Part shown: piece by piece, positions 6,327-23,927 of the stretch
Layout: the number at the start of each line of letters is the position of its first letter
Position numbering within the stretch: position 1 is the first letter of the stretch
Assembly: GCF_015354335.1 (NCBI RefSeq)
Contig: NZ_JADKYR010000004.1
Span: forward strand, 124,001 to 188,000
Reading direction: 5' to 3'
Source: Methylophilus sp. 13
GTDB taxonomy: Bacteria; Pseudomonadota; Gammaproteobacteria; Burkholderiales; Methylophilaceae
DNA length: 64,000 bases
Translations under genes and position numbers: made by a program
The notes under the pieces: generated by a model
Told to the model about the DNA's origin: nothing
The model's input: the letters and a program-made list of their open reading frames with translations, nothing else
The model's database searches: none

Positions 6327-6359
6327 TTTGCATAACAGTTAACGAGAGGCATACACGCC

Positions 6360-7875: not shown

Positions 7876-8742
7876 ATGGCGCAACGTGAGTCTTTGCGTG
7901 GGTTGTCGTTGAAGCCCACCCGGATGTCGGCTACCAGCCTGCCTGAGTTGAGTTTGCATAAGCGGCAGTTGGGCGAGCTGGCGGGGGTGTTCCGCTGGTC
8001 AGTACTGGCGACTGAGCAGTTGCTCATGCGTGACCGCCGCCAGGGTTGGCACGCAGTGGGCATGCTGCTGGTGGTCGCGCTGCATGCGCTGGTGATCGCC
8101 AGTTTTCTGCTGTTTGAAGAGGAACTCATTGAGTTGCCCAAGCCAGAGCCGATAACGGTATCGTTGATTACCTTGCCTGCAAAAAAAGAGGAGGCGCCTG
8201 CGCCAGAGGTGGTGCCCATCATCAAGCAGCAGCCGGTGGTGAAACCGGTGATCAAACCAAAGGAAACGCCAGTCAAGCCCATAGAGCGCCCGGCACCAGT
8301 GGTGGAACGGATCACGGAAACCACGCCAGATCAGCCCAAGTTTGAAGCCAGCACCCAGCCCGCCGCGCCGCCGCTGGAAGCGCCGCAAGCGGCTGCCCCT
8401 AGCAAGCCCGCACCTGCACCTGCTGCGCCACCCAAGCACGAGGTGGAAGAAAAAGAGGAGCCGCCAAAGTTTGGTGTGGCTTACCTGAACAACCCGGCGC
8501 CGGAATACCCGCGGTTGTCACAGCGCGCCGGTGAAGAGGGGCGCGTGTTGCTCAGGGTGCTGGTGTCGGCAGAAGGTCACCCGGAGTCGGTAGAGATTTT
8601 TAAAAGCAGTGGCTATGAGCGGCTGGACAAGGCGGCACTCAATGCCGTCAAGCAATGGCGGTTTGAGCCAGCCCGCAAAGGCGGCAAGGCGCTCAGTGCT
8701 TTCGTCAATGTGCCATTGTCTTTCTCACTCACACAAAATTAA
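7876..8742 (+). CDS. tonB: Energy transducer TonB with a long cytoplasmic N-terminus
   Basis: Couples the proton-motive force gathered by ExbB-ExbD to outer-membrane receptors. There is a ~58-residue cytoplasmic leader, one membrane helix (about residues 59-80), a Pro/Lys/Glu/Ala-rich periplasmic spacer (about 85-200) and a C-terminal TonB domain (about 205-288) with YPRLSQRAGEEGRVLLRV and KQWRFEPA. GGAG 10 bases before the ATG supports this start; later in-frame Mets at residues 17 and 51 exist but have no better ribosome site. The leader is longer than in E. coli TonB, where the helix begins almost at once. First gene of tonB-exbB-exbD. Confidence 0.93.
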   Translation: MAQRESLRGLSLKPTRMSATSLPELSLHKRQLGELAGVFRWSVLATEQLLMRDRRQGWHAVGMLLVVALHALVIASFLLFEEELIELPKPEPITVSLITLPAKKEEAPAPEVVPIIKQQPVVKPVIKPKETPVKPIERPAPVVERITETTPDQPKFEASTQPAAPPLEAPQAAAPSKPAPAPAAPPKHEVEEKEEPPKFGVAYLNNPAPEYPRLSQRAGEEGRVLLRVLVSAEGHPESVEIFKSSGYERLDKAALNAVKQWRFEPARKGGKALSAFVNVPLSFSLTQN

Positions 8743-8769
8743 ATCAGTTTTTATTGAAAGGAACGTTTG

Positions 8770-9513
8770 ATGCAATCAACTAGTGGTTTGGCATTTATTA
8801 CCGAGGGTGGGGTTGTCTCGGTCATCGTGGCGCTGGTGCTGCTGACCATGTCGGTCATGAGCTGGTATTTTATTGTGGTCAAGGCTTGGCAAGTCTTCAA
8901 GCACAAGCGCGAAGTCACGGCTTATGTAAAGCAGTTCTGGCGCAAAGCGACTTTGCAAGAGGCCTTGCAGGATACGCAGATGCAATCACCAGCGTTCCGC
9001 CTGGCGCTGACTGCTGTGGAATCTACCCAGCACCATCAGCAACATGCCAGCCAGTCTCTGGGCGCGGCTTGCAGCCAGGATGAGTTTGTTGCACGCCAGT
9101 TGCGCCGTACCTTGTCGCAAGAGCAGGCAGGCATGGAGAGCGGGTTGTCTGTCCTTGCTTCTGTGGGCAGCGTGGCTCCATTTGTTGGTTTGTTCGGCAC
9201 GGTGTGGGGGATTTACCACGCGCTGACCGCGATTGGCCAATCCGGCGTGGCGACCATCGACAAGGTGGCCGGCCCGGTTGGTGAGGCTTTGATTATGACG
9301 GCGATTGGTCTGGCGGTGGCGATCCCGGCTGTGTTGGCCTATAACGCCTTTATCAAGGCGAATCGCAGTGTCATGGCCGAGCTCGAGAATTTTGCGCAAG
9401 ACTTGCATACCTTGCTGACCACGGGTGCGCCATTGATGATCAAGCAAGGTCAGAAACCTGCCAATGTGACTGAGCTGCACGCTAAAGTCGCAAGCAAAGG
9501 TGGCAACCTATGA
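8770..9513 (+). CDS. exbB: ExbB, proton-channel subunit of the TonB motor (MotA/TolQ/ExbB family)
   Basis: Forms the inner-membrane pentamer around ExbD. Three membrane segments are visible: near residues 15-35 (VIVALVLLTMSVMSWYFIV), about 135-157 (LASVGSVAPFVGLFGTVWGI) and about 172-195 (ALIMTAIGLAVAIPAVLAYN), with the family signature GLFGTVWGI. ATG 8770 follows AAAGGAACG, a good ribosome site. The stop overlaps the exbD start (ATGATG), indicating translational coupling. Confidence 0.94.
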   Translation: MQSTSGLAFITEGGVVSVIVALVLLTMSVMSWYFIVVKAWQVFKHKREVTAYVKQFWRKATLQEALQDTQMQSPAFRLALTAVESTQHHQQHASQSLGAACSQDEFVARQLRRTLSQEQAGMESGLSVLASVGSVAPFVGLFGTVWGIYHALTAIGQSGVATIDKVAGPVGEALIMTAIGLAVAIPAVLAYNAFIKANRSVMAELENFAQDLHTLLTTGAPLMIKQGQKPANVTELHAKVASKGGNL

Positions 9514-9929
9514 TGGGGCAAAATCCTTTTAGCGCGGGTGAACACACCCAGCCCATGAGTGAAATCAACACCACGCCACTGGTGGATGTGATGCTGGTCT
9601 TGCTGGTGATTTTTATCATTACTGCGCCCTTGCTGACGCATGCGGTCAAGATTGATTTGCCTCAGGCCACCTCGCAGCCACTGGAGGAAAAGCCGGAAGT
9701 GATTGACCTGGCGGTGGATGCAGACGGTAAGCTGTTCTGGAACGATAGCGAAATCCAGGCGCCAGAGTTGGCTGCCAAGTTGCAGGAAGAAGCAGGCAGG
9801 CAGCAACAGTCCGAGTTGCAGATTCGCGCCGATAAAAACACCCGCTATCAGGTGCTGGCCGAGGTGTTGGCCAAGGCGCAAACAGCGGGCATGAAAAAAA
9901 TTGGCTTTGTCAGCCAGCCGCAACCTTGA
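9510..9929 (+). CDS. exbD: ExbD, TonB motor subunit (TolR family)
   Basis: Single-pass inner-membrane protein with a short cytoplasmic N-terminus ending in EINTTPLVDVMLVLLVIFIIT, where the Asp in PLVDVML is the conserved protonatable residue of the channel. The periplasmic domain follows to residue 139. Start may be either of two tandem ATGs (9510 or 9513) overlapping the exbB stop. Confidence 0.94.
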   Translation: MMGQNPFSAGEHTQPMSEINTTPLVDVMLVLLVIFIITAPLLTHAVKIDLPQATSQPLEEKPEVIDLAVDADGKLFWNDSEIQAPELAAKLQEEAGRQQQSELQIRADKNTRYQVLAEVLAKAQTAGMKKIGFVSQPQP

Positions 9930-9958
9930 TTCAAATTCATCTGAGTTAACCATCGCAT

Positions 9959-11095
9959 ATGAAACAGCAAACCATCCGCCGCTGGGCATGGATCCATAAA
10001 TGGAGCAGTCTGGTCTGTACAGCATTCATGTTGCTGTTATGCCTGACCGGCCTGCCCCTGATTTTTATGCATGAGCTGCATCATCTGCTGGGTGACCAGA
10101 TTGAAACGCCTGTGATCAGCCATGCCGGGCCCAATGCCAGCATGGATAGCCTGATGGCGGCGGCCAAAGCCCGTTACCCCAAGCTGGTGCCGCAATATAT
10201 GTACCGCGAAGACGACGAGCCATTGCAGTGGGTGGTCCGCTTGGGTACGACGCCGACTGACATCACGAATACCCACAACGTGGTACTCGATGCGCGTACG
10301 GCACAGGTGCTGGGTGAGCCCAAGGATGACGAAGGCTTTTTATATGTGATGTTCAAGCTGCATGTTGATTTATTCGCGGGCTTGCCTGGCATGTTGTTCC
10401 TGGGTTTGATGGGCTTTTTGCTGTTGATTGCCCTTATTTCCGGCGTGGTGCTGTACGCGCCTTTCATGCGCAAACTGCCGTTTGGCGAGATCCGTCACCA
10501 GCGTGGCGACAAGCTCAAGCGCCTTGATATCCATAACTTTCTGGGCATCGTCACGCTCTGCTGGTTGCTGGTGGTGGGGGCGACCGGCGTGATCAATGCC
10601 TGGTCGGATTTGCTGATTAAATACTGGCAATTTGACCAAATGGCGCAAATGGTCGCGCCCTATAAAAACCTGCCTCCACCGACAGCGTTTGCCTCACTGC
10701 AGCAGTCTTTGCAAGTGGCGCAGCGTGCCGAACCCGAGATGCAATTAGGCTTTATCGCCTTTCCAGGCACGCCTTATACCAGCCGGCATCATTATGGCAT
10801 TTTCATGCGTGGCGATAGCCCGCTGACCAAGCGCCTGTTCAAGCCCGTGCTGGTCGATGCACAGACCGCACAGCTGACCGATAGTCGACCGCTGCCCTGG
10901 TATCTGGTGGGCTTGCTGGTGTCGCAGCCGTTGCATTTTGGCGATTATGGTGGCATGACTTTGAAGTGGATTTGGGCGGTGCTGGATGTATTGAGTATTG
11001 TGGTGTTGTGGACCGGGCTCAAGCTCTGGTGGAAAAAGCGCCACCAATATGTGCCGGATATTCAAACGCGCATCATACTGAGTGAGGCGAGCTGA
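9959..11095 (+). CDS. PepSY-associated transmembrane protein, probable ferric-siderophore or flavin-linked reductase family
   Basis: A 378-residue PepSY_TM protein with four or five hydrophobic helices: about 14-36, 140-165, 195-218 and 335-358. Conserved His residues lie at helix edges (WAWIHKW, MHELHHLL, HVDLFAG, HNFLGI, PLHFGDYGG), a pattern seen in heme-containing iron-regulated membrane proteins of the PiuB/FsrB type. The charged tail LKLWWKKR ends the last helix, as in the paralogue at 20004. It sits 29 bp after exbD and is likely in the same transcript. Role inferred: reductive release of iron from imported complexes. Confidence 0.8.
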   Translation: MKQQTIRRWAWIHKWSSLVCTAFMLLLCLTGLPLIFMHELHHLLGDQIETPVISHAGPNASMDSLMAAAKARYPKLVPQYMYREDDEPLQWVVRLGTTPTDITNTHNVVLDARTAQVLGEPKDDEGFLYVMFKLHVDLFAGLPGMLFLGLMGFLLLIALISGVVLYAPFMRKLPFGEIRHQRGDKLKRLDIHNFLGIVTLCWLLVVGATGVINAWSDLLIKYWQFDQMAQMVAPYKNLPPPTAFASLQQSLQVAQRAEPEMQLGFIAFPGTPYTSRHHYGIFMRGDSPLTKRLFKPVLVDAQTAQLTDSRPLPWYLVGLLVSQPLHFGDYGGMTLKWIWAVLDVLSIVVLWTGLKLWWKKRHQYVPDIQTRIILSEAS

Positions 11096-11198
11096 GCATC
11101 CGGTTTGATGAATAGCGTTTTTTGTGAATATCGACACTGTTTGTGAATTTAAATCTCTGGGGTTTCAACGGCGATGTCTCAATAGGCGAATATGAATC

Positions 11199-11438
11199 AT
11201 GGTTACACATCTGTTTATGCAAAATAAATCACTGTCACAAATCTTTTTATGGCCGCTGGTCATTGGCCTCATCACAGTGCTGGGCCTGGTCACCGCCTTG
11301 CTGGTAGATGATGCCCGCGAATTGTTGTCGGATGCAGCGGTGGCGCTGCCGATTGTGATCAGCCTTTATTACTATCTTTGCAAGCCGCGCTTGTCTGCCC
11401 GTTTTTTGCCCGGCCAGCCTGGGCGCGCCCGCAAGTAA
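11199..11438 (+). CDS. Small two-helix membrane protein of the iron region
   Basis: A 79-residue protein with two hydrophobic segments (about residues 16-36 and 45-60), an acidic turn (VDDARELLSD) between them and a basic C-terminal tail. I do not assign it to a family. Position after a PepSY gene suggests a membrane accessory of siderophore processing. An in-frame ATG at 11217 is an alternative start. Confidence 0.55.
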   Translation: MVTHLFMQNKSLSQIFLWPLVIGLITVLGLVTALLVDDARELLSDAAVALPIVISLYYYLCKPRLSARFLPGQPGRARK

Positions 11439-11453
11439 GTCTTTTTTTGATTG

Positions 11454-11471
11454 CCCCGGCAAGCTGCCGGG
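11454..11471. terminator. Possible terminator before the azurin leader
   Basis: CCCGGC and GCCGGG form a six-bp stem around AAGCT. The following T-run is interrupted, so termination is plausible but weak. Confidence 0.4.
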
Positions 11472-11485
11472 CCGTCTTTAGTTTA

Positions 11486-11543
11486 GCCAGCCACCGAGTC
11501 GTCACTCCAGTAGCCAGCCAGTTTTTAAATTGGATGATTGGAG
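11486..11543 (+). promoter_or_regulatory. Leader RNA element, copy A (azurin)
   Basis: Block one GCCAGCCACCGAG at 11486-11498 and block two CCAGTAGCCAGC at 11507-11518. CTCCA (11505-11509) can pair with TGGAG (11539-11543), which is the Shine-Dalgarno region five bases before the azurin ATG. Alternatively GAGT (11496-11499) can pair with ACTC (11504-11507) over a four-base loop. The two pairings exclude one another. No Fur box is seen upstream of this copy. Confidence 0.65.
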
Positions 11544-11548
11544 CATAG

Positions 11549-12064
11549 ATGAAACTCACTTTTAACCCCCGCCTTTCCGCGAGCCTGCCTTCTTTTTCAG
11601 CGCGCTTATTGTTAAAAGCCGCGCCGCTGGCCGTGGTTGCCAGCACTTTATTGCTACAAGCCTCTGCGCAGGCCGCAGATCATTGTGAAGTCACGGTAGA
11701 AGCCACGGATGCCATGACCTATAACGTCAAGGAAATTGCTGTGCCCAAAGCCTGCGCCTCTTTTGCCATTCGCTTGAAGCATACCGGCACCATGGCTAAA
11801 AACATCATGGGCCATAACCTGATAATCAGCAAACAGGCAGATGAACAGGGCGTATTGCAGGATGGCATGAAGGCAGGCATCGCCAAGTCTTTTGTCAAAC
11901 CGCAGGACAGTCGCGTGCTCGCCGCCACCCAGGTGATTGGCGGTGGTGAGAGTGCGGAGATCAGCCTGACGCCCAAGCAGCTGGATGCCTCCGCCAGTTA
12001 TGTCTTCTTTTGCTCATTCCCCGGCCATGCCTCGATGATGAAAGGCACGCTCAAGCTGATCTAG
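11549..12064 (+). CDS. Azurin (type 1 blue copper protein)
   Basis: Periplasmic one-electron carrier. An N-terminal export signal ends near residue 43 (LLLQASAQAA). The mature part shows every azurin landmark: disulphide cysteines Cys46 and Cys69, and copper ligands His89 (MGHN), Cys155, His160 and Met164 in CSFPGHASMMKG. The signal is longer than usual, with a Ser/Arg-rich leader before the hydrophobic stretch. A copper protein inside an iron-uptake region, and sharing a leader element with the siderophore receptors, is unusual. Partner redox enzyme unknown. Confidence 0.93.
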   Translation: MKLTFNPRLSASLPSFSARLLLKAAPLAVVASTLLLQASAQAADHCEVTVEATDAMTYNVKEIAVPKACASFAIRLKHTGTMAKNIMGHNLIISKQADEQGVLQDGMKAGIAKSFVKPQDSRVLAATQVIGGGESAEISLTPKQLDASASYVFFCSFPGHASMMKGTLKLI

Positions 12065-12203
12065 TCCTTGCAGAACCTGCCTGCACCGGTGGGTTCAAAT
12101 GGGCACAGGGCCCAGTTGCGGGTGATCACTTCGTTTCTTACTGGCAGTAAAAGCAAAGCGTTACCGCGGCTAAAACATGATGAGTGCGTTTGAGGAGAAC
12201 ACG

Positions 12204-12752
12204 ATGCAAGACACACAAAAATTACAGGCCGTTGGCACTGAAGCCAATGCGTTCCACCGGCAGTTTCAATCCCTGCAGTTAGCGACCACCAGTGATCAGG
12301 GATGGCCTGAAGCCAGCTATGCCACTTTTGTCGAGCACGAGCAGCGGTTTTATATTTATGTGAGTGAGTTGGCCGCCCATTGCGCCAATTTGCAACATCA
12401 CGGTCGTTGCTCGGTGATGTTTATCGAAAGCGAGCAGGCGGCCAGCCATCCATTTGCCAGAAAGCGTCTTGTGCTGCAATGCCAGGCGCAAGAAGTGCCT
12501 AGGGATGAAGCTACGTTTGTATTGGTGATGGATCAGTTTCATGCCAAATTTGGCAAATTTATGGAAGTGATCGCCAAACTGACGGACTTTCACCTGTATG
12601 CCTTAACACCGTTAGAGGGCAGCTATGTGGCTGGTTTTGCCAAAGCCTATCGCCTGACCGGCCAGGATTTATCTGAGGTGGCGCACCGTAACGAACAAGG
12701 CCATCGTGCGCCAGATAGCGCCAGTCAGGCGGATCTGGATGCGTTGGTTTGA
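12204..12752 (+). CDS. HugZ/HutZ-like heme utilisation protein (pyridoxamine oxidase-like split barrel)
   Basis: FMN-binding-like split-barrel fold; relatives (HugZ, HutZ) bind heme and degrade it or help release iron. The stretch EGSYVAGFAKAYRLTGQDL near the C-terminus is the family's heme-associated segment, and the early SLQLATTSDQGWPEASYA segment matches the barrel start. GAGGAG six bases before ATG 12204 favours that start over the upstream ATG at 12177. It immediately precedes the hmuTUV genes, with which it is probably co-transcribed. Catalytic activity is inferred from family and context. Confidence 0.75.
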   Translation: MQDTQKLQAVGTEANAFHRQFQSLQLATTSDQGWPEASYATFVEHEQRFYIYVSELAAHCANLQHHGRCSVMFIESEQAASHPFARKRLVLQCQAQEVPRDEATFVLVMDQFHAKFGKFMEVIAKLTDFHLYALTPLEGSYVAGFAKAYRLTGQDLSEVAHRNEQGHRAPDSASQADLDALV

Positions 12753-12786
12753 TGGCATGGATAAGCAGAAAACACGTATTCATGCC

Positions 12787-13683
12787 ATGAACGCTTCAGT
12801 GGCGGCCAGACGGCAATTTTTACAGCAAGCGGGTGCATTGGGAATCACAGCCCTATTGCCCCAGTCTTTGGTGTGGGCCGCAGACACCGGGCCCGCGAGC
12901 CAGCGCATCGTCAGTATCGGCGGTGCTCTGACAGAAATGATATATGCACTCGGTGCCAGCCAGACCTTGGTCGGTGTAGATACCACTTCGCTTTTTCCGG
13001 CGGCTGCCACCAGGTTACCCAGTGTTGGCTATGCACGCACCTTGTCCAGCGAAGGGATTCTGGCATTGGCGCCGACGCTGGTGGTCGCCACTGAGGATGC
13101 CGGGCCCCCGGCCGTACTAAGGCAAGTTCAGGCTGCAGGTGTGCCGCTAAGTATTCTGGCGGCGCATGACCGCTTTGAAGGCGTGGTAGATCGCATGCAA
13201 CAGCTTGGGCGTTTGCTTGATCGTACGCCAGCGGCGACGCAGTACGTAGACAAACTCAAAGCCGACTGGCAACGTGTGCGTGCGCCGATTCTGGCACGTA
13301 AAGGGCAGGGCTCACGTGTGCTGTTTGTGTTGTCACACGCCCCCGGCCAGGTCATGGTGGGAGGGCAGGGGAGCAGTGCCGAGGCCATGTTGCATTATGT
13401 GGGCGCACGCAATGCGGTACAGGGGTTTCAGGGCTTTAAACCGTTGACCCCCGAGGCCGTGATTGCGGCACAGCCAGAGATCGTTTTGTTCACAGAGCAA
13501 GGGCTGGCGGTGGTGGGTGGAGTCGAAGGCGCACTGCGGCTGCCTGGCCTGGCGCAGACGCCTGCCGGGGAGCATCGCCGGATTGTGGCGCTGGAAGCCA
13601 TGTTCATGCTAGGTTTTGGTCCACGATTGCCGCAGGCCGTCGCCGCACTTGATCAATTGCTCGGCAAGGCCATGACCCTATGA
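12787..13683 (+). CDS. hmuT: Hemin ABC transporter periplasmic binding protein
   Basis: Captures heme in the periplasm for HmuUV. The N-terminus has a twin-arginine-like signal (ARRQFLQQAGALGITAL) ending near VWA. The mature start RIVSIGGALTEMIYALGA and the motifs VGVDTTS, LPSVGYARTLSSEGILAL and AGPPAVL are typical of HmuT. The ORF is open further upstream; starts at 12757 or 12706 are possible, but none of the choices has a clear ribosome site and 12787 gives the normal signal length. Its stop overlaps the permease ATG (ATGA). Confidence 0.85.
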   Translation: MNASVAARRQFLQQAGALGITALLPQSLVWAADTGPASQRIVSIGGALTEMIYALGASQTLVGVDTTSLFPAAATRLPSVGYARTLSSEGILALAPTLVVATEDAGPPAVLRQVQAAGVPLSILAAHDRFEGVVDRMQQLGRLLDRTPAATQYVDKLKADWQRVRAPILARKGQGSRVLFVLSHAPGQVMVGGQGSSAEAMLHYVGARNAVQGFQGFKPLTPEAVIAAQPEIVLFTEQGLAVVGGVEGALRLPGLAQTPAGEHRRIVALEAMFMLGFGPRLPQAVAALDQLLGKAMTL

Positions 13684-14753
13684 TTAGCGCAACCGGCTGG
13701 CCGGTCTTCTGCGAGCGCCTAACCACCCGTTTTGCAACATATCCTTCCTGGGGTTTGGGTCTTGTCTTGCTCATCCTGCTCGCATTGTCGGCCTGGGCGG
13801 GGGCCGTCCCCGTGACGTTGGCTGACTGGCGCATCGGCTGGTTGAATGACTCCGCTCATCCGCTCACAGGCGGTGCTTATGTGCTGTGGAATCTGCGATT
13901 GCCGCGCATTCTGTTTGCGGCACTGGTTGGGGCTGCCTTGGGATTGTCGGGCGCGCTCACGCAAGGCCTGTTTCGTAACCCGCTGGCCGACCCGGGGTTG
14001 CTGGGGGTGAGTAGTGGTGCCGCCTGCGCGGCGGCGTTAACGATTGTGCTGCTGGCTGGCTCGGGAATAGAGATTCCCATCACTTTACGCTATTGGCTGT
14101 TACCACTGATGGCTTTTGTCGGTGCGGTAAGTGTCTGCTTTTTGCTGGATGGCGTGGCGCGCTGGCTCACGGCTGATTCGATTGCCGGATTGCTATTGAC
14201 TGGGATTGCACTCAATGCGCTGGCTACCGCCGTCATAGGCTTATGCACCTATCTGGCGACGGATGAACAGCTGCGTAGCCTCACATTCTGGACGTTAGGG
14301 TCGCTGGCGAGTGCCAGTTGGCGGCTGGTGGTGGTGTTGTCACTGTTGTTGATCGCCGCGTTGGCCTATATGCAACGGCTGGTGAATGCCATGAATGCAC
14401 TGGCGCTCGGCGAGGCGGCCGCCGCGCATGTCGGCATTCACGTGCGTCAATTACGCCGCCGTGTCATTGTGCTGGTGGCGCTATTAAGCGGATTTGCCGT
14501 CGCCTGGTGCGGCATGATCGGTTTTATCGGCTTGGTCGCCCCACATATTGTGCGTTTATTGATCGGGCCTGATCAGCGTCGTCTATCTCCCCTTGCCATG
14601 CTGGTTGGCGCCATCCTGTTGCTATTGGCTGATACCGCGGCCCGTACGCTGGCGATTCCCGCAGAAATTCCAGTTGGGATTTTTACGGCATTGCTGGGTG
14701 CGCCGTTCTTCTTGCTATTGCTCGGGAGCTTCAGAAAAGGCGGTCATCTATGA
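13680..14753 (+). CDS. hmuU: Hemin ABC transporter permease (FecCD family)
   Basis: A 357-residue multi-spanning permease, with about ten hydrophobic helices and the FecCD signatures WNLRLPRILFAALVGAALGLSGA and GMIGFIGLVAPHIVRLL. ATGA overlaps with both hmuT upstream and hmuV downstream show tight translational coupling. A short hydrophilic leader (about 20 residues) precedes the first helix. Confidence 0.92.
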   Translation: MISATGWPVFCERLTTRFATYPSWGLGLVLLILLALSAWAGAVPVTLADWRIGWLNDSAHPLTGGAYVLWNLRLPRILFAALVGAALGLSGALTQGLFRNPLADPGLLGVSSGAACAAALTIVLLAGSGIEIPITLRYWLLPLMAFVGAVSVCFLLDGVARWLTADSIAGLLLTGIALNALATAVIGLCTYLATDEQLRSLTFWTLGSLASASWRLVVVLSLLLIAALAYMQRLVNAMNALALGEAAAAHVGIHVRQLRRRVIVLVALLSGFAVAWCGMIGFIGLVAPHIVRLLIGPDQRRLSPLAMLVGAILLLLADTAARTLAIPAEIPVGIFTALLGAPFFLLLLGSFRKGGHL

Positions 14754-15583
14754 GCTATCGCACTGCACATTTGCTCGAGCTGCAAGCCGTGACGCTCAAA
14801 TTAGGCGGCCATGTTTTTGGTCCGTTTTCGATGACCGTGCAGCCAGGTGAACGGATTGCGGTGCTCGGACCCAGTGGCGCCGGTAAATCCACCTTGCTCA
14901 AGTTGCTCGCGCGCGAGTATTTGCCCAGCAGTGGCCAAGTCACGCTGCGTGAGCGCTGTTTGACAACGTGGTCACTGGTCGACTTAAGCCGCCAACGCGC
15001 CATCTTGCCACAGTCGCATGAGGTCGCCTTTGGGTTGCCCGTTGAACTGGTGATTGGTCTTGGCCGGGTCGCCAGAATGGTCGATCCTGATTTAAATGTG
15101 ATAGTGCGTCAGGCGGCAGAACTGGCGTGTGCCCGGCACTTGCTGCCGCGCCGGTTCGATACCCTGTCCGGTGGCGAAAAGGCGCGCGTCCATCTCGCCA
15201 GAGTCTTTGCGCAATTGTGGGATATCGAGCAAGGCCTGTTGCTGGTGGATGAGCCGATGGCGGCGCTCGACCCGGGCTTGCAGTGGCAACTGATGGCCGC
15301 CATGGATCAGTTTGCCCGCCAGCGTGGGCATGCGATTTTCGCCATCTTGCATGATATCAATCAGGCCTTGCAGGGATTCGACCGGCTCGTGCTGATTAAA
15401 GATGGGCGTCTCATGGGTGATTATCCGCGCAGGCAAATTGCCCTGTCGACGTTGGCTGCTTTGTACGATGTCCATTTGGTCAGTGCGGTCACTGAGCAAG
15501 GGCAAATGCTGGTTGCTCCCGAGGCGGCCCTAGTCACTTCTGTTGATTTTATGAATGATAATTGTTATCATTCAATGTATTAA
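14750..15583 (+). CDS. hmuV: Hemin ABC transporter ATP-binding protein
   Basis: Drives heme import. Walker A GPSGAGKST is at residues 40-48, signature LSGGE at 139-143, Walker B LLLVDEP at 163-169 and the H-loop in AILHDINQAL. At 277 residues it is slightly longer than average; the last ~20 codons overlap a Fur box used by the next gene, and the tail (VDFMNDNCYHSMY) is therefore partly dictated by the operator. Confidence 0.93.
   Translation: MSYRTAHLLELQAVTLKLGGHVFGPFSMTVQPGERIAVLGPSGAGKSTLLKLLAREYLPSSGQVTLRERCLTTWSLVDLSRQRAILPQSHEVAFGLPVELVIGLGRVARMVDPDLNVIVRQAAELACARHLLPRRFDTLSGGEKARVHLARVFAQLWDIEQGLLLVDEPMAALDPGLQWQLMAAMDQFARQRGHAIFAILHDINQALQGFDRLVLIKDGRLMGDYPRRQIALSTLAALYDVHLVSAVTEQGQMLVAPEAALVTSVDFMNDNCYHSMY
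15556..15570. promoter_or_regulatory. Fur box within the 3' end of hmuV, for the 15642 receptor
   Basis: TGATAATTGTTATCA matches the 7-1-7 Fur consensus at 14 of 15 positions. It lies inside the last hmuV codons, 71 bp before the receptor start, and ends 14 bp before leader element copy B. Confidence 0.85.
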
Positions 15584-15584
15584 T

Positions 15585-15634
15585 GCAAGCCAACGAGTCC
15601 TTTATCTCCTGTAGCCAGCGATTGTTTACTGGAG
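15585..15634 (+). promoter_or_regulatory. Leader RNA element, copy B (siderophore receptor 15642)
   Basis: Block one GCAAGCCAACGAG at 15585-15597, block two CCTGTAGCCAGC at 15608-15619. CTCC (15606-15609) can pair with GGAG (15631-15634), the ribosome site seven bases before ATG 15642. GAG (15595-15597) can pair with CTC (15606-15608) instead. The element begins right after a Fur box, so close to the expected mRNA 5' end. Confidence 0.65.
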
Positions 15635-15641
15635 TTTTTGT

Positions 15642-17735
15642 ATGTACTCGTTTCGTATCCCTGCAATCCCGCTCGTATTTGTGATTGCTCTCCCAGCAAT
15701 AGCTTCCAGTGAGGAAGTAGCACCCAAAGTTGAAACCGATACCTTATCTGAGGTGTCTGTGAGCGCGAAAAAAAGTAGTAAAAGAGATAAATTCATTACC
15801 CAAGACCGTGCGACTTCAGTGGGTAAAAGCCCCGTTTCAGTGCAAGATATGCCTCAGTCCGTCACTGTTGTGGATGTCGAGCAGGCACGAGAAATGGGGG
15901 CTTTGAATATTCAGGATGCTCTGACTTACAGTGCTGGCGTCTATGCTGGTAACTTTGGATTTGATACCAGAATAGACTCTGCCTCAGTTCGCGGCTTAAC
16001 CCCATCTATGTTCCAAGATGGTTTGCGTAATTTGTATGGCTCCTACAATAACACCAGAACGGATATCTATATGCTTGAACGCATAGAAGTCTTGAAGGGG
16101 CCTTCTTCATCTGTGTTCGGGCAGTCAGATTTGGGTGGGATTGTGAATAGCGTTTCCAAACGCCCCAAAAAAGTAGCCGCACGTGAAGTGAATCTGCAAT
16201 ATGGTATGTATGACCGTAAGCAACTGGGTATCGACTTTACAGGTCCTCTGAGTGAGGATGGCGAATGGCTTTATCGACTGGTGGCTTTAAAGCGAGACAG
16301 TGGTACACAGGTTGATTATGTGAAAGATGATGCCGTGGTGTTTATGCCCTCGGTGACTTGGCAGCCAAGTGATAAAACCAGTATCACTATGCAGTATGTG
16401 CATCAGGAAACTGATAGTACGGTTTCAGCACAGTTTTTGCCTTCTCGAGGAACGATCCTTCCAGGACCATTAGGTCGAATATCCAGCCGGACCTTTGTCG
16501 GGGAGCCTGGCTGGGATCGCTACGACACCAAAAAAGACGAAGTGTCATTGTTCGTAGATCAGGCGATTACTGACCAAATTAAACTTGTGGCAAATTTGAG
16601 AAAAGTTAACTCAGATACGATCACACGGGAACACTGGACTCGAGTTGGAGCTAACCCTGATAGCACAGGCAATATACAGCGTACCATTCACGCTGCTGAC
16701 CGCAGTACCAATGTATTTTCAAGCGATACACGCTTGCAGGGCAATTTTGCGTTAGGACCGACCAAGCATTTGGTGTCTTTAGGAATGGATTACCAAGATG
16801 CATTATGGACAGAGCGTAATTACACCTCTACAACCTCTGCATTTGGCATCAATGTTTATAACCCGGTATATGGCAATGTCGATTATGGTGCATTAGTCGG
16901 CGCTGAACGGGACAATAACAAAATCGTGCAGACGGGCTTTTACTTGACCGAACATATGGAATGGGGCCCCTGGGTTGTTTCTGGAGCTCTGCGTCGAGAT
17001 CATGCGACAAATACCTTGCTCAAGGTTGGTGCTACGCCAGATGTTGATGCGCGTAATTCAGTAACCACGGGACGCTTGGGTCTGATGTATCGGTTCGAGA
17101 GTGGAGTCTCACCTTATGTTAACTACTCTGAAGCATTTGTGCCGAATTTGGGTACTGATGGGAATAATGGTGTGCTAAAACCTACTGAAGGAGAACAACG
17201 CGAAGCTGGGATGAAATATTACTCTCCAGATGGCAACACATCAGCAGCGTTTGCTTGGTTTGAGATTGAGCAACTCAATAGAGTTATTCAAGGGAACACC
17301 CCGGGTGGTTTGCAACAAACCGGTGCATTAACCAGAGGTTGGGAGGTCGAGGCCAAGCATCGAATGGGTGATTGGGAGCTGCTTGGCAACTACAGTCGCA
17401 TGAATGCGTTTAACGACACCACCAAAATTAGGTTGCCATATGTCGCAGAAAAATTGGGTTCAGCCTGGGCACAATACAAAATCAACTCAAATTGGCGCGC
17501 TGGGGTGGGGGTGCGTTATTTAGGTGACAACGTCGGGTTTGGTGGTTTGCCCACAGTGCCATCAGTTACCTTGTTCGATGCCATGGTTGGATTTAACTAT
17601 GGGAAATGGGACTTGCGCGCCACGATTAGAAATATCGCTGATAAGGAGTTTATTTCCTGGTGTCGCGGCAATGGTCAAGATTGTGGATATGGCGAACGCC
17701 AGAATGCTGTCCTCTCTGCAAACTATACCTTTTAA
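15642..17735 (+). CDS. TonB-dependent siderophore receptor (ferrichrome/hydroxamate FhuA-like class)
   Basis: Outer-membrane receptor of 697 residues. Signal peptide about residues 1-22 (ending AIASS). A TonB-box-like DTLSEVSV segment precedes the plug domain (about 50-165; SPVSVQDMPQSVTVVD, then IEVLKGPSSSVFGQSDLGGIVNSVSKRP) and the barrel ends in the aromatic ANYTF. Two Cys near the end (SWCRGNGQDCGYGERQ) match the disulphide loop of FhuA-type hydroxamate receptors. Control by the Fur box at 15556 and by the leader element is likely. Exact ligand cannot be read from sequence. Confidence 0.9.
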   Translation: MYSFRIPAIPLVFVIALPAIASSEEVAPKVETDTLSEVSVSAKKSSKRDKFITQDRATSVGKSPVSVQDMPQSVTVVDVEQAREMGALNIQDALTYSAGVYAGNFGFDTRIDSASVRGLTPSMFQDGLRNLYGSYNNTRTDIYMLERIEVLKGPSSSVFGQSDLGGIVNSVSKRPKKVAAREVNLQYGMYDRKQLGIDFTGPLSEDGEWLYRLVALKRDSGTQVDYVKDDAVVFMPSVTWQPSDKTSITMQYVHQETDSTVSAQFLPSRGTILPGPLGRISSRTFVGEPGWDRYDTKKDEVSLFVDQAITDQIKLVANLRKVNSDTITREHWTRVGANPDSTGNIQRTIHAADRSTNVFSSDTRLQGNFALGPTKHLVSLGMDYQDALWTERNYTSTTSAFGINVYNPVYGNVDYGALVGAERDNNKIVQTGFYLTEHMEWGPWVVSGALRRDHATNTLLKVGATPDVDARNSVTTGRLGLMYRFESGVSPYVNYSEAFVPNLGTDGNNGVLKPTEGEQREAGMKYYSPDGNTSAAFAWFEIEQLNRVIQGNTPGGLQQTGALTRGWEVEAKHRMGDWELLGNYSRMNAFNDTTKIRLPYVAEKLGSAWAQYKINSNWRAGVGVRYLGDNVGFGGLPTVPSVTLFDAMVGFNYGKWDLRATIRNIADKEFISWCRGNGQDCGYGERQNAVLSANYTF

Positions 17736-17754
17736 CACCAACTTTTATATATAC

Positions 17755-17784
17755 AACCAAGCACCGCTTACGTGCTTGGTTTTT
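17755..17784 (+). terminator. Intrinsic terminator between two receptor genes
   Basis: AACCAAGCAC (17755-17764) pairs with GTGCTTGGTT (17772-17781) and is followed by a T-run. It would end or attenuate the 15642 transcript before the receptor at 17806. Confidence 0.75.
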
Positions 17785-17805
17785 AACTTTTTGAGGTTAT
17801 CAAAC

Positions 17806-19986
17806 ATGAACGCTTATAAAAAAGTCCTGATTGCAGTCATGTATGCAACGGTTTTTATGGATGCTTCCGCTGAAGAGTCTGAATTAGACACTTTGGGCGA
17901 GGTGAAAGTGAAAGCTTCTGCTGATGCGAATGCTAAAGGCCTGATGAAGCCTTATGCTGGCGGACAGGTTGCGAAAGGCGGGCGGGTTGGCGTGCTTGGC
18001 AATAAAGATGCCATGGATACCCCATTTTCAATCAACGCATATACCAATGAGTTGATCCAGAACCAACAGGCAAAAAGTGTAGGGGATGTGTTACTAAATG
18101 ATCCTTCCGTACGCGTTGCCCGTGGCTTTGGCAACTTTCAGGAGTCATATTTTATTCGTGGTTTTCAACTGTATTCCGATAGTGTTGCATATAACGGGTT
18201 GTATGGAATACTTCCAAGACAGTATATTGCGGCCGAGCTCTTTGAGCGTGTTGAGGTTCTGCGTGGTGCCTCCGCATTCTTAAATGGGACAAGCCCGAAT
18301 GGGGATGCCATTGGAGGCTCGATTTCTTTACTGCCAAAGCGAGCACCAAATGAGCCATTGAGCGTAGTAAATGCTGGCTGGAGTTCTGGTAACCAACAAC
18401 TTATTTCTGCAGATGTGGCAAGACGTTTTGGCCCGGATGACAGTGCCGGTATTCGGTTGAATGTGTCTAGGCGTGATGGCGGTACTGCAGTTGATAAAGA
18501 ACATGCTGAAGTTGATCTGATTTCGCTGGCATTAGATTGGCGCGGCGAGAATTTGCGGTTGTCTGGGGATATCGGGTATCAGGATAATCATCTGAAGCAA
18601 ACGCGCACAAACGTCACGCTTGCTGCGTCGACAGGTGTACCGCGAGCGCCTAGTAGTGATTCAAACTGGGCGCAGCCATGGTCTTACTCTAATGAGCGGG
18701 ACACCTTCGGGACTTTGCGTGGTGAATACGATTTAACTGACAAAGTGACAGCTTACTTTGCCGGAGGCTTCCGTGAGTCACATGAAGCTAACTCGTTAGC
18801 AAATTTGACAGTCAACAACTCTGCGACTGGCACGGGTACTTTCTATCGTTTTGACAATACCAGAGAAGACTCGGTAAGAACCGGTGAAGTTGGCCTAAAA
18901 GGTAAGTTTGAAACGGGTTCTATCAGCCATGACGTTGTATTAAATGCAAACTTATATCATTTTGAGAAAAAAGCAGCGTATACGTTTGATTCTGGTAATC
19001 AGCTCAATACCAACTTATATGCCCCAACTTATTATGCCCTGCCTGCATTTACTGCAGGCGCAGGTTCAGGTGGTGTGTTGGATAATCCGAATACGACAGG
19101 TAGAACGATTTTACGTAGCCTTGCCATAGGTGACACACTGGCCATGTTAGATAATCAGTTGTTGTTGACGCTAGGGGTGAGAAGTCAGCAAATAGCTGCG
19201 ACAACCTATGATTACAATGGCGTGTTTAGTAGTGCGTACGACAAGACGAAGCTGAGCCCTGTGTTGGGTGCGGTAGTAAAACCCTGGGACGGCATCTCTC
19301 TCTATGCTAATTACATTGAAGGCTTGTCACAAGGGGCAACAGCTCCAGGAACCACCGCTAATCGAGGTGAGACGCTTGCCCCCTATGTCTCAAAACAGAA
19401 AGAAGTGGGAGCCAAGTTTGATTTTGGTAAGGTTCGGGTGACTACTGCTTACTTTACCACTGAGAAACCACGCGGTTTTATCAATGCGGCGAATGTATTT
19501 ACTTCGCAAGGGAAAGAAGAACACCAAGGGGTTGAACTGATGACTTATGGTCAGATTTCGCCCAGTTTGCGGGTGTTGGGGGGGATTACCTGGTTGGATG
19601 CCAAACAGAAGAATACGGGCAATGCCTCGACGGAAGATAAGCAAACGATTGGTATTCCAGATCAACAAGCTAACCTGGGTCTAGAGTGGGATGCATTTAT
19701 GGTGCCTGGTTTAACATTTGATGCGCGTGTGATTACTACTGGCCATGTGTATGGTAATGGCACAAACACTCAAAGACTGCCAGGTTGGACCCGTTTAGAT
19801 ATCGGCGCAAGATATGCGACTGAGATTGAAGGGCATTTATTAACCGTTCGTGGCCGTATTGATAACATCACAGATCGTGATTATTGGGCCTCTGCAGGTG
19901 GTTATGCAGGGCTAACCTCTAATTCCGGCTATCTGGTGTTGGGTGCGCCACGGACTATCACCGTCAGCGCCCAGCTTGATTTTTAA
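17806..19986 (+). CDS. TonB-dependent siderophore receptor (FcuA/FhuE-like)
   Basis: A 726-residue outer-membrane receptor. ATG 17806 gives a signal peptide ending near MDASA, while an upstream open frame is only overlap with the previous gene. The TonB box (about LDTLGEVKVKA), plug (about residues 65-180, with FERVEVLRGASAFLNGTSPNGDAIGGSISLLPKR) and a barrel ending in ISVSAQLDF-like terminal Phe (VSAQLDF) are visible. Unlike three neighbouring receptors it has neither Fur box nor leader element, so it may be expressed by read-through from 15642 or translationally paired with the PepSY gene 17 bp downstream. Confidence 0.9.
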   Translation: MNAYKKVLIAVMYATVFMDASAEESELDTLGEVKVKASADANAKGLMKPYAGGQVAKGGRVGVLGNKDAMDTPFSINAYTNELIQNQQAKSVGDVLLNDPSVRVARGFGNFQESYFIRGFQLYSDSVAYNGLYGILPRQYIAAELFERVEVLRGASAFLNGTSPNGDAIGGSISLLPKRAPNEPLSVVNAGWSSGNQQLISADVARRFGPDDSAGIRLNVSRRDGGTAVDKEHAEVDLISLALDWRGENLRLSGDIGYQDNHLKQTRTNVTLAASTGVPRAPSSDSNWAQPWSYSNERDTFGTLRGEYDLTDKVTAYFAGGFRESHEANSLANLTVNNSATGTGTFYRFDNTREDSVRTGEVGLKGKFETGSISHDVVLNANLYHFEKKAAYTFDSGNQLNTNLYAPTYYALPAFTAGAGSGGVLDNPNTTGRTILRSLAIGDTLAMLDNQLLLTLGVRSQQIAATTYDYNGVFSSAYDKTKLSPVLGAVVKPWDGISLYANYIEGLSQGATAPGTTANRGETLAPYVSKQKEVGAKFDFGKVRVTTAYFTTEKPRGFINAANVFTSQGKEEHQGVELMTYGQISPSLRVLGGITWLDAKQKNTGNASTEDKQTIGIPDQQANLGLEWDAFMVPGLTFDARVITTGHVYGNGTNTQRLPGWTRLDIGARYATEIEGHLLTVRGRIDNITDRDYWASAGGYAGLTSNSGYLVLGAPRTITVSAQLDF

Positions 19987-20003
19987 ATACGAGGTAATTT
20001 GTT

Positions 20004-21284
20004 TTGCGTTCGTCTTTATTATTGGTACATCGGTGGTTAGGCATGGCTAGTGCTTTGTTTCTAATGATCACCGGGCTCACTGGTGCCATTATTTCATGGG
20101 ATCACGAGATTGATACGTTACTGAATCCAGCGTGGATGCATAGCAAGTCACAAGGTGCGCATCAGTCGACATTAGTGCTTGCAAAACAGGTGTCAGAGCG
20201 CTATCCACAAGTTCAGGTCAGTTCGATTCCGCTGAGTGTTGAAGAGGGGCATACGCTGACCATTGGCGTCAGGCCATTATCTAATCCACCGGATGGCATG
20301 GTGCCTGTTAAATTTAACCAGGTGTTTATTGACCCCGTCACCGGCCAGGAGCTAGGCAAGCGGGAGTGGGGCGCCGTGTGGCCGGTAGATCGGACCAATG
20401 TCGTCTCTTTTTTGTATAAGTTGCATTACAGTTTGCACCTGCCCGAAATGTGGGGAATCGACCGCTGGGGACTATGGTTGTTAGGCGGCGTTGCGCTGAT
20501 TTGGCTGATTGATAGTTTTGTTGGTTTTTATCTTACCTTGCCCAAGTTTGCCAACACCCCAAAAACCAAATTGCACAAAGTACAACAGAACACCCAAGCC
20601 TCGTTCTGGAAGCGCTGGTGGCCTGCATGGAAAATGCGCTGGAACAGCAGTACGCACAAACGTTACTTTGATATGCATCGTGCTTTTGGCTTATGGACAT
20701 GGATATTGCTGATGATTCTGGCATTTTCTGCCTTTGCCCTTAATTTACGCCGTGAAGTCTTTATGCCAGTCATGAAGTCTGCGTTCACACTGACGCCCAC
20801 TCCTTCAGATATACGTCCGCGCTTACCGGTCTCACAACAATTACCACCGCAGGTAGATTATGGAAAAGTGCTGGCGATGGCGATCAAGGAGGCGCGTAGG
20901 CAAGGCTGGCATGAGCCAGCAGGACGCATATCTTATAGCGCGGCATACCAGTTGTTTAATGTGGATTTTTATTATCCTGATGCCGATCATGGTGTGGCAG
21001 GTGCCGGCCATAAACGTTTGTATTACGATAGCTTGGATGCACATTATGTTGGCAAACGTATTCCTTGGGAAGGCACAGCAGGTGATGTGATTGTGCAAGC
21101 CCAATTCCCCCTGCATTCTGGCCGTATCTTGGGCCTGCCCGGCAGGATTATGATTTCTGTCATGGGAATGGTGGTGGCCACGCTTTCTGCAACGGGCGTG
21201 TATTTATGGTGGAAAAAGCGCAAGGCACGAAGCATTTCTGAGGGAATGCTGCGCATGAATTCGTTGCGTACGCATCGTTCATGA
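20004..21284 (+). CDS. PepSY-associated transmembrane protein (second copy), TTG start
   Basis: A 426-residue inner-membrane protein of the PepSY_TM family. Helices lie at about residues 12-34, 155-178, 228-250 and 378-400, with the family features LLVHRWLGMASALFLMITGLTGA, HYSLHLP, MHRAFGLWTW and PLHSGRILGLPGR. GAGGT eight bases before TTG 20004 and the conserved RSSLLLVHRWLG beginning support TTG over the ATG at 20043. It follows the receptor at 17806 by 17 bp. Likely function is ferric-siderophore reduction or processing; inferred. Confidence 0.82.
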   Translation: MRSSLLLVHRWLGMASALFLMITGLTGAIISWDHEIDTLLNPAWMHSKSQGAHQSTLVLAKQVSERYPQVQVSSIPLSVEEGHTLTIGVRPLSNPPDGMVPVKFNQVFIDPVTGQELGKREWGAVWPVDRTNVVSFLYKLHYSLHLPEMWGIDRWGLWLLGGVALIWLIDSFVGFYLTLPKFANTPKTKLHKVQQNTQASFWKRWWPAWKMRWNSSTHKRYFDMHRAFGLWTWILLMILAFSAFALNLRREVFMPVMKSAFTLTPTPSDIRPRLPVSQQLPPQVDYGKVLAMAIKEARRQGWHEPAGRISYSAAYQLFNVDFYYPDADHGVAGAGHKRLYYDSLDAHYVGKRIPWEGTAGDVIVQAQFPLHSGRILGLPGRIMISVMGMVVATLSATGVYLWWKKRKARSISEGMLRMNSLRTHRS

Positions 21285-21413
21285 GCGCTTTAGCCACACT
21301 TACGTGGCGTTATTAAAACGCCAACCTCTTAGCAATCCGGTATGTTTACTGGCCCCTGGCAGGGAGGGGTGCTGAGGGTGTTGAAAATAAAAATCAGATT
21401 GATCTTGTTGTTT

Positions 21414-21462
21414 GCCAGCCATCGAGTTACGCACTCCAGTAGCCAGCTTTATTTAATGGGAG
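21414..21462 (+). promoter_or_regulatory. Leader RNA element, copy C (siderophore receptor 21469)
   Basis: Block one GCCAGCCATCGAG at 21414-21426, block two CCAGTAGCCAGC at 21436-21447. CACTCC (21432-21437) forms a perfect six-bp pairing with GGAGTG (21459-21464), which includes the ribosome site of GTG 21469. The competing pairing is GAGT (21424-21427) with ACTC (21433-21436). No Fur box is visible upstream. Confidence 0.65.
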
Positions 21463-21468
21463 TGTTGT

Positions 21469-23625
21469 GTGACCGTGATTCGATTAAAAACAGTTTATTT
21501 GTCGTTGTTGTTAGCCTTGCCGATGTCGGCTGTTTGGGCGCAGGGGGAGGCTGAGAAGACTGCTTCTGCGCCAGCTGCAACAAACACTGATGACGATCAG
21601 CAAACTCTGGGGGAAGTTGAGGTATCGACCAGCCGTCGCCAGAGTTTTCACTCAAACACGGTACAGGTCGGGACTTTCAGAGACATGAATCCGCTGGACG
21701 TGCCCTTGACCGTGAACACGGTGACGCGTGAGGTGTTGGATGCGCAAGCGACCAACTCATTGTTTGGCGCATTGCGGAACACCGCGGGGGTTTCGCGCTC
21801 GCAATTGAGTGGCTCGACCTATGACAATATTGCGATCCGCGGCATTCTGGTCGAGAACCGCGGAAACTACCGGCTCAATGGTTCGTTGCCGATTATTAAC
21901 CTGATTGATACGCCGCTAGAAAACAAAGAGCGGGTAGAAGTGCTCAAAGGGGCTTCGTCTCTGTATTACGGCTTGGTGCCGCCCTCTGGCATTATCAACC
22001 TGGTGACCAAGCGGGCTGGTCAGGTTGAAAACAAAAGCCTGACGCTGTCTACCAATGAATTTGGCACGCGTAGCGCCCATGTGGACTATGGCAAGCGCTT
22101 TGGCGCTGATCAGCAGTTTGGTGCACGCTTTAACGTGGTCACTGGCAGTGAAGATATTGGCATTGACCATTATGACGGCAGCCGTGGTCTGGTCTCAGCC
22201 GCATTGGATTGGCGTGCAAACGATAAATTGTCTTTCAAGCTTGACCTTGAGCATTACCGCAAAGATGTTTCAGAGCAGGCTGCGATTGTAGTGCCTAATG
22301 CTGTCAACGGTAAGATCACGCTGCCGCCTGTGCCAGCAGCGACACAAAACCTGGCGGGCAAATGGCAGCACTATGATGCTGAGGCAACCAATATTCTGTT
22401 CAGGACCGATTATGCCTTGAGTGATGACTGGAGTTGGTTGTTTGAAGCTGGACGAGCTAAGACGGAGCGCGACCGTAACTTTTCACAGTTTCAGAACTTT
22501 AACCCGCTTACGGGTGAAGGAGAGTTGCAAATTTCATTTACACGGAATCAAGTGTTTACCAACACCAACTTTAGAACCGAGTTGCTTGGTTTGCTGGAGA
22601 CAGGCCCGATCAAGCATCAGCTCACCTTGGGATACACCAGCAATCAGCGTGAGGGCGTGACACCTATGTTTGCAACTCGTACATTGACTCAAAACTATTT
22701 TAATCCCAGAGTCGTTCCTGTGCTTGCGGCGGTTTCCAATAACCGTTTATCTGACCAGACAATTCTGGATCGAGGCCTGTATGTATTTGATCAAATGGCG
22801 TTGACAGACCAATGGACCCTCATGGCAGGTGCGCGGCAAAGTCGTTATGACACTGAGACCATTGCCACCAATGCAGGCACGGCAACGACTACGCGCTTCA
22901 ACGCCAAAAAAGTCATTCCCTCCGTGGCGCTGATGTACAAAGTTCAGCCAAATATTTCTCTCTACGCCAGCTACATTGAAGGTTTTGAGGACAGTGGGCA
23001 AGTTCCGACTAGATGGTCAAATGCTGGCGAGTTACTCAATCCTGCGAAATCAAGACAAAAAGAAATTGGTGCAAAGGCGCAAGTGTTTGATCGTTTTTTG
23101 CTGCAATTGGCCTATTTTGATATTGAGCGTGCCGCCGCATTTGGTTATCCGAGTACTAATATCTATAAGATTAACGGTGACGCAAATTATCAAGGCTTGG
23201 AATTTGCTGCTACTGGCGAGTTGACGGAGAGGCTGTCTGTTGCCGCCTCTTTCCTGCTGATGGATGCGACCTTGAAAACACCTGACGCGGCCAGCAATGG
23301 CAATATGCCAGAGAATACGCCAGAGAAAACTGCCAGTCTGTTTGGCGAATACCAGATTGCGCAGGTCCCAGGCCTGTTTTTGAGCGCGGGCTTGTTTTAT
23401 AGCGGCAAGCAACAGGTGAATGCATTTAATCAAGCTAGCATAGATGGCTACACGATTGGGTCGGTAGGGGCCAGATACAAGACCCTGCTGGGCAAGCAAA
23501 AAGCCACTTTTCAGGTCGTGGTCGACAATGTCACGGATAAAGACTACTGGAGTACCGCAGGGAACAGCCTGTTAGGCGTCGGCCGACCAAGAACCTTGCA
23601 GGCCAATCTGCGCCTGGATTTTTAA
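21469..23625 (+). CDS. TonB-dependent siderophore receptor, GTG start
   Basis: A 718-residue outer-membrane receptor. The signal peptide ends at VWAQG (about residue 24). The TonB box is near TLGEVEVSTS, and the plug spans about residues 60-175 (PLDVPLTVNTVTREVLDA, then VEVLKGASSLYYGLVPPSGIINLVTKRAG). The barrel ends in LQANLRLDF. GGAG six bases before GTG 21469 fixes the start. The plug style resembles FhuE/FpvA-like receptors with a PPSG loop. The gene stands alone after a 184-bp gap and ends 302 bp before the next receptor. Confidence 0.9.
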   Translation: MTVIRLKTVYLSLLLALPMSAVWAQGEAEKTASAPAATNTDDDQQTLGEVEVSTSRRQSFHSNTVQVGTFRDMNPLDVPLTVNTVTREVLDAQATNSLFGALRNTAGVSRSQLSGSTYDNIAIRGILVENRGNYRLNGSLPIINLIDTPLENKERVEVLKGASSLYYGLVPPSGIINLVTKRAGQVENKSLTLSTNEFGTRSAHVDYGKRFGADQQFGARFNVVTGSEDIGIDHYDGSRGLVSAALDWRANDKLSFKLDLEHYRKDVSEQAAIVVPNAVNGKITLPPVPAATQNLAGKWQHYDAEATNILFRTDYALSDDWSWLFEAGRAKTERDRNFSQFQNFNPLTGEGELQISFTRNQVFTNTNFRTELLGLLETGPIKHQLTLGYTSNQREGVTPMFATRTLTQNYFNPRVVPVLAAVSNNRLSDQTILDRGLYVFDQMALTDQWTLMAGARQSRYDTETIATNAGTATTTRFNAKKVIPSVALMYKVQPNISLYASYIEGFEDSGQVPTRWSNAGELLNPAKSRQKEIGAKAQVFDRFLLQLAYFDIERAAAFGYPSTNIYKINGDANYQGLEFAATGELTERLSVAASFLLMDATLKTPDAASNGNMPENTPEKTASLFGEYQIAQVPGLFLSAGLFYSGKQQVNAFNQASIDGYTIGSVGARYKTLLGKQKATFQVVVDNVTDKDYWSTAGNSLLGVGRPRTLQANLRLDF

Positions 23626-23827
23626 CTGGCCCCTGTCACACGCAGCTACTTTGATATTTGAATCAGGCTGGTTGCCCTGATGTGGTCTGTACCCAGAGCA
23701 CAGGCCGCACCTAATTACATTTAAACGTCACCGCTCAATTATGTTTGCAAATATGACGCTTGGGTTGCCACCCGTATTTACATTTGCACAAATAAATGTT
23801 CGCACAACCTTTCATTGCTTGTAAAAA

Positions 23828-23842
23828 TGAGAATTGTTATCA
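23828..23842. promoter_or_regulatory. Fur box for the 23928 receptor
   Basis: TGAGAATTGTTATCA matches the 7-1-7 Fur consensus at 13 of 15 positions. It ends 18 bp before leader element copy D, so the element should start near the transcription start. Confidence 0.8.
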
Positions 23843-23860
23843 TTCGTGCTTATTCAATTT

Positions 23861-23920: not shown

Positions 23921-23927
23921 ACTATTT

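Follow-up and report, generated by a model that had tools for sequence, protein, structure and literature searches.

Leaders of iron-acquisition genes in Methylophilus and its relatives carry a conserved two-block element of about 33 nt that, in many copies, lies immediately behind a Fur box with a predicted promoter built into it. The element recurs across the family Methylophilaceae with a short covarying stem, which points to a leader RNA. We hypothesise that it could work as a translational switch set by a trans-acting factor, a proposal to which we give an even chance of being correct.

The element and its copies in the window

The window, which is the whole 64 kb stretch of DNA analysed here, belongs to a 3.11-Mb genome. 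Within it, the element consists of block one (GCAAGCCAACGAG), a spacer and block two (CTCCwGTAGCCAGC or a TTCC variant). Both blocks contain an AGCCA-type sequence outside the 3-bp stem P1 described below, which is plainest in L195/L221, L196/L222 and the azurin copies. Searching the window's own genome with the two-block pattern returned solely four matches, copies A to D:

11486–11518, + strand: copy A element, without a Fur box, ahead of the azurin gene at 11549–12064 (TIGR02695)
15585–15619, + strand: copy B, whole element, two-block pattern
15585–15597, + strand: block one of copy B (GCAAGCCAACGAG), with GAG at 15595–15597 as the 5' strand of the predicted stem P1
15606–15619, + strand: block two of copy B (CTCCTGTAGCCAGC), with CTC at 15606–15608 as the 3' strand of P1, also complementary to the Shine-Dalgarno sequence
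15631–15634, + strand: Shine-Dalgarno sequence GGAG of the copy B gene, a receptor gene starting at 15642
15642–17735, + strand: TonB-dependent siderophore receptor, the copy B gene
21414–21447, + strand: copy C element, without a Fur box, ahead of the TonB-dependent receptor gene at 21469–23625 (GTG start)
23861–23893, + strand: copy D element, GCAAGCCAACGAG-cattgt-TTCCAGTAGCCAGC
23917–23921, + strand: Shine-Dalgarno sequence GGGAA of the copy D gene, complementary to the TTCC of copy D; the receptor gene begins at 23928
23928–26150, + strand: TonB-dependent receptor, the copy D gene

The surroundings of these copies have features of their own. A tonB-exbB-exbD-PepSY_TM cluster with a short ORF (~79 codons) occupies 7876–11439 ahead of copy A, and in most of the relatives examined the element likewise follows these cluster genes. 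Just 5' of copy A, at 11455–11471, a GC-rich hairpin (CCCGGC-AAGCT-GCCGGG) followed by CCGTCTTT was noticed by eye and is absent from the consensus scan; a terminator or processing site at this position would bear on the transcription of copy A. The last part of the copy B receptor gene is overlapped by a second receptor ORF (17524–19986), before which there is no separate element.

Recurrence among Methylophilaceae

The search for further copies used a sequence-only model derived from 29 distinct copies and covered 299 relatives, with copies taken from among the matches listed and with filters that lose weak matches. Re-searching 23 sources with the model gave 43 rows, which correspond to 41 copies once L225 186 and 2517, which repeat L164 copies because the stretches overlap, are removed. 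Ten weak two-block matches with 2–3 mismatches had been left out by eye on the basis of their flanks, and none of them returned in the model search. The 41 copies are distributed over 21 Methylophilaceae genomes, comprising 15 of the 21 searched genomes of the window's own genus and six from elsewhere in the family. A divergent 42nd copy in L318, a 22nd genome, is located ~100 bp after its Fur box. In the loci examined, the copies mostly reside in gene regions adjoining tonB-exbB-exbD. Since the first copies were found by pattern, the conservation of the blocks in part reflects the search itself, and the looser model later added copies that diverge more. A spread of the element beyond the Methylophilaceae was considered and rejected for nine genomes of the same order, in which the pattern matches were judged to be chance from the matched strings alone; a wider pattern scan matched at least 116 contig stretches.

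All 41 copies precede a start codon in the same orientation at a distance of 21–38 nt, measured to start codons that, like those of the control receptors used below, were picked by a simple score and may in some cases be wrong. The genes behind the element encode TonB-dependent receptors in 35 cases and azurin in six; 13 of the 35 receptors were confirmed by Pfam, whereas L194 (cut by the contig end) was named from its N-terminus and the others by tblastn and N-termini. In the window's own genome, three of the 28 receptor genes carry the element, which rules out that it is a general feature of TonB-dependent receptor genes.

A predicted promoter inside the Fur box

Fur boxes over the promoters of siderophore receptor genes are ordinary. 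Those of copies B and D are near-perfect 19-bp sites that end 12 and 16 bp 5' of the element:

15543–15548, + strand: predicted -35 hexamer TTGATT of copy B, 17 bp from TATCAT
15554–15572, + strand: Fur box of copy B (AATGATAATTGTTATCATT), within the final codons of the ABC-transporter ORF 14750–15583 and holding the predicted -10 TATCAT (15566–15571)
23826–23844, + strand: Fur box of copy D (AATGAGAATTGTTATCATT), with a predicted -35 TTGCTT at 23815–23820 and a predicted -10 TATCAT at 23838–23843

The original prediction had placed 15-bp Fur cores at 15556–15570 and 23828–23842; both lie inside these boxes and, as proposed, end 14 and 18 bp before the GCAAGCC at 15585 and 23861. The window holds four Fur-box-like sites at ≤3 mismatches against 0.02 expected from shuffles, and the genome encodes two Fur-family proteins. 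A Fur box (≤2 mismatches) accompanies 26 of the 41 copies and ends 9–24 bp before the element, so that the spacing between box and element is a conserved arrangement.

The promoter shows an equally regular geometry. A TTG located 11 bp before the start of the box, and thus 17 bp before the in-box TATCAT, is found in 25 of the 26 Fur-box copies; among the other offsets scanned (22 in all), none had TTG in more than four of them. This fixed offset suggests a sigma-70 promoter merged with the Fur site, and the expectation that the Fur sites overlap the promoter is likely to be right on this evidence. A consensus promoter scan recovered TTGATT-17-TATCAT with a TG extension at 15543–15571 for copy B; the copy D site was not among its matches in the region, in which it returned 12 promoter-like sites compared with 13.5 in shuffles, and thus no excess.

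Transcription typically starts ~7 nt after the -10 hexamer. The predicted starts are about 15577–15579 for copy B and 23848–23852 for copy D, 6 to 13 nt 5' of the element. With the start placed in this way, the element is predicted to begin at ~+4 to +19 in the Fur-box copies. The suggestion that the element would be the first thing transcribed therefore fits copies such as B and D and does not hold as a rule, since a Fur box is missing from 15 of the 41 copies and the 42nd is ~100 bp away from its own. Twelve of the 15 boxless copies are located in the cluster behind tonB-exbB-exbD (six azurin copies and six ahead of receptors); the remaining three are window copy C, L155 12021 and L217 18139. 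Given these boxless copies and the distant 42nd, the element is, by its placement, to be regarded as separate from the Fur promoter and as neither a Fur part nor a promoter part. The Fur box of copy B lies within the last codons of the ABC gene, so read-through from the upstream ABC-gene operon is possible for this copy.

Elsewhere in the window, a perfect Fur box at 39103–39121 with TTGCAA at the -35 offset has no element after it; a 218-aa ORF (39529) and a TonB-dependent receptor gene lie downstream.

A covarying stem supports an RNA

The two blocks can pair through stem P1, in which GAG of block one meets CTC of block two over 3 bp. In an alignment of 42 copies (40 distinct sequences), 95.8% of the 119 cells in P1 are paired. 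Double changes are seen in two of the three pairs, a result matched by 4 of 500 shuffles, and the covariation score is matched by 0 of 500; these shuffles ignore relatedness among the copies. Pair 13/22 occurs as GC, AU, UA and GU, and pair 12/23 has GC for AU once. Of the 39 distinct sequences that have letters at the third pair, 13/22, five do not maintain the pairing. Sliding the partners against each other leaves 44–61% of cells paired, and slide -2 (61%) has a covariation of 0.194 versus 0.187 for P1. An extension of P1 to four pairs was rejected, the fourth pair being without support.

The spacer before GTAGCC ranges from 8 to 13 nt across the 41 copies. This variable length, together with the covariation of P1, suggests that the element behaves as a leader RNA rather than as a DNA site. 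A leader peptide was discarded as an explanation, as the spacer differences are not multiples of three and block two has no fixed frame. Rfam release 15 gave no match at gathering score in the 64 kb and none at E up to 10 in 11000–24200.

Possible pairing of block two with the Shine-Dalgarno sequence

Block two is also able to pair with the Shine-Dalgarno region. In 38 non-redundant copies out of the 41, matched block-two/Shine-Dalgarno duplexes had a mean of -8.97 kcal/mol versus -7.80 kcal/mol when the Shine-Dalgarno regions were permuted, and one in 10,000 permutations was as low, with relatedness ignored. Compensated examples include AAAACTCC/GGAGTTTT, GTCTCC/GGAGAC and TCCTGTA/TACAGGA. 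The copy's own duplex was no better than the mean with Shine-Dalgarno regions of other classes in 12 of the 38 copies, including copy B (-7.2 vs a mean of -8.6), and the azurin-type block two pairs better with the Shine-Dalgarno regions of the B class (-11.6) than with its own (-8.4). The median unpaired probability of the Shine-Dalgarno sequence was 0.20 in 40 of the 41 element leaders versus 0.35 in a comparison set of 24 further receptor leaders from the window's own genome (one-sided p=0.003). Folding z-scores are unremarkable for copies B (-1.0) and D (+0.33), and ten leaders range from -3.57 to +1.08. Support for a putative alternative helix that would occlude the Shine-Dalgarno sequence comes from the set taken as a whole and is weak in the window's copies B and D. 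P1 and the block-two/Shine-Dalgarno helix both need the CTC and are mutually exclusive; as both helices use the same three nucleotides, a switch is the most economical reading.

A model for the leader and its alternatives

Placement, promoter geometry, recurrence and P1 covariation are directly apparent in the genomes compared; we infer Shine-Dalgarno occlusion and a switch and, on the basis of RNA covariation and Shine-Dalgarno complementarity, post-transcriptional control of the receptors. In our model, a cis-acting leader RNA of ~33 nt would be common to several transcription units within a single iron-acquisition region of Methylophilus and its relatives. For copies B and D, transcription would proceed from a sigma-70 promoter with its -10 inside the Fur box, which iron-loaded Fur would block, and the element would begin about 6–13 nt after the predicted start. 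Block two (CTCCwG) lying on the Shine-Dalgarno sequence would keep translation low, while its CTC lying on the GAG of block one (P1) would leave the Shine-Dalgarno sequence free. A trans-acting factor reading the AGCCA-type sequences that flank P1 would pick between the two forms, the main options being a protein or a short-seed sRNA.

The element could instead be a common site for a base-pairing sRNA with short seeds, as in Caulobacter receptor mRNAs, with P1 being secondary. The genome encodes Hfq, two blocks with a common AGCCA could meet two seeds, and receptor mRNAs are known targets of SisA/CrfA (PMC12559287) and RusT (PMC11005374). However, the covariation of P1 would be unexpected for a plain target site, and none of 10 distinct Fur-type sites (≤3 mismatches) in the window's own genome clearly heads an sRNA gene when inspected by eye. 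A long complement would also appear as an opposite-strand match to the model, yet the 12 matches opened among those listed (2 in the own genome at E≤1 and 10 partial ones in relatives) all overlap open frames of ≥80 aa. Among these opened matches a long antisense sRNA is thereby rejected, and long complements only, so that short seeds may still act; on balance we consider the sRNA site unlikely as an explanation. A DNA operator or promoter part over the start region, such as the site of a second regulator or an ECF sigma factor, would agree with the position of the B and D elements directly 3' of the predicted promoter. Such a site is difficult to reconcile with a spacer of 8 to 13 nt, an orientation relative to the start codon that is constant in all 41 copies, the 15 copies without an adjacent Fur promoter and the 42nd at ~100 bp from its box, or a covarying P1, and we regard it as improbable. 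Equally improbable in our judgement are leaders that merely represent duplications, carried along with the receptor genes through gene conversion and devoid of a regulatory role. Copies do occur in syntenic gene regions and many come from close relatives, but the blocks are common to azurin and several receptor types whose flanks look little alike by eye, and they are kept in other genera, in which the receptors are down to 22–35% identical to those of the window; moreover, compensatory changes in P1 imply selection.

An S4 paralog behind a Fur box in the same region

The region also encodes a paralog of ribosomal protein S4 upstream of tonB:

6753–7370: S4 paralog of 205 aa with 0 Cys, upstream of tonB in the same region

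The paralog shares 42% identity with the other S4 of the genome over residues 24–202. A Fur box at 6310–6328, with TTGACT 17 bp before TATCAT, is followed by a 102-aa ORF without known function and the S4 paralog (to 7370). Thirty loci were taken from the 56 genomes with the paralog, and a start could be placed in 28 of them. A Fur box with ≤4 mismatches precedes the operon in 27 of these 28 loci (relatives and own genome), and the -35 offset carries TTGAC(A/T) in 24 and TTTAC in 4, which is the same geometry as in the element copies.

S4 regulates translation on its own operon mRNA. A speculative candidate for the trans-acting factor could be the putatively Fur-controlled, cysteine-free S4 paralog, which would bind the GCAAGCCAAC-P1-GUAGCCAGC leader and switch the translation of receptors and azurin. 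The paralog is encoded upstream in the same region, its operon has the Fur box just described, and it is present in 21 of the 22 element-bearing genomes. Against this, G011 has a strict element without the paralog, and in G016 the paralog is ~163 kb from the element. The paralog occurs in 56 of 180 family genomes, and the element was detected in 21 of those 56 among the matches listed (G299 being outside the element search). Furthermore, the paralog type is the sole S4 found in some genomes, so that a role as a normal ribosomal protein is within its reach. Mimicry of 16S rRNA did no better than shuffles: a resemblance of block two to helix 18 of 16S rRNA was considered, but local alignment of six of the 41 copies to the 3.3-kb own 16S locus was equalled by 74 to 262 of 300 shuffles, and mimicry was rejected. 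We therefore see the S4 paralog as a very improbable regulator of these leaders; if true, an alternative ribosomal protein would be serving as an iron-starvation mRNA regulator.

In G021, G030, G036, G049, G061, G070 and G086, the single S4 found is of the paralog type (66–68% identity to the window paralog), and it may have replaced the canonical S4 in these genomes.

PMC3087516 describes zinc and non-zinc forms of S4, with Methylobacillus flagellatus carrying two C-(IV) S4 copies, and reports no Zur sites near S4 paralogs. These forms bear on the cysteine-free paralog of the window. Whereas Zur sites were sought in that work, and "Fur" is absent as a whole word from its main text, here the paralog operon, which lies upstream of tonB-exbBD, has a Fur box ahead of it. 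With this box in front of the S4 paralog, the part that alternative ribosomal proteins may play under iron limitation becomes a question accessible to experiment.

Comparison with known systems and implications

The promoters of copies B and D are reminiscent of Fur-repressed siderophore receptor promoters, in which a palindromic Fur box covers a sigma-70 promoter ahead of TonB-dependent receptor genes. They differ in that a conserved RNA-like element follows the box, an element that is also found boxless. Our proposed switch resembles the Caulobacter systems, where the sRNAs SisA/CrfA and RusT control TonB-dependent receptors (PMC12559287, PMC11005374): a set of receptor mRNAs is controlled via 5' leaders, in our case by proposal. 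However, SisA/CrfA and RusT act in trans, whereas the leaders described here contain a conserved element in cis whose stem covaries, and the opened matches and Fur-type sites revealed no clear sRNA. A further parallel is btuB of E. coli, for which PMC11162775 describes a cobalamin riboswitch together with OmrA/OmrB. There, as in our proposal, cis control in the leader of a receptor mRNA is combined with further RNA regulators; in contrast to btuB, the present element spans ~33 nt and has no cobalamin or other Rfam match. No paper was recognised as describing the element among the matches listed, subscription journals being outside the search.

If the translational switch is right, the leader would be a compact element (~33 nt) outside every family of Rfam release 15, and it could be tested by point mutations. 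The RNA-level gate would be common to several receptors and the copper protein azurin. It would place a second, RNA-level gate on iron uptake directly behind the Fur gate in these methylotrophs.
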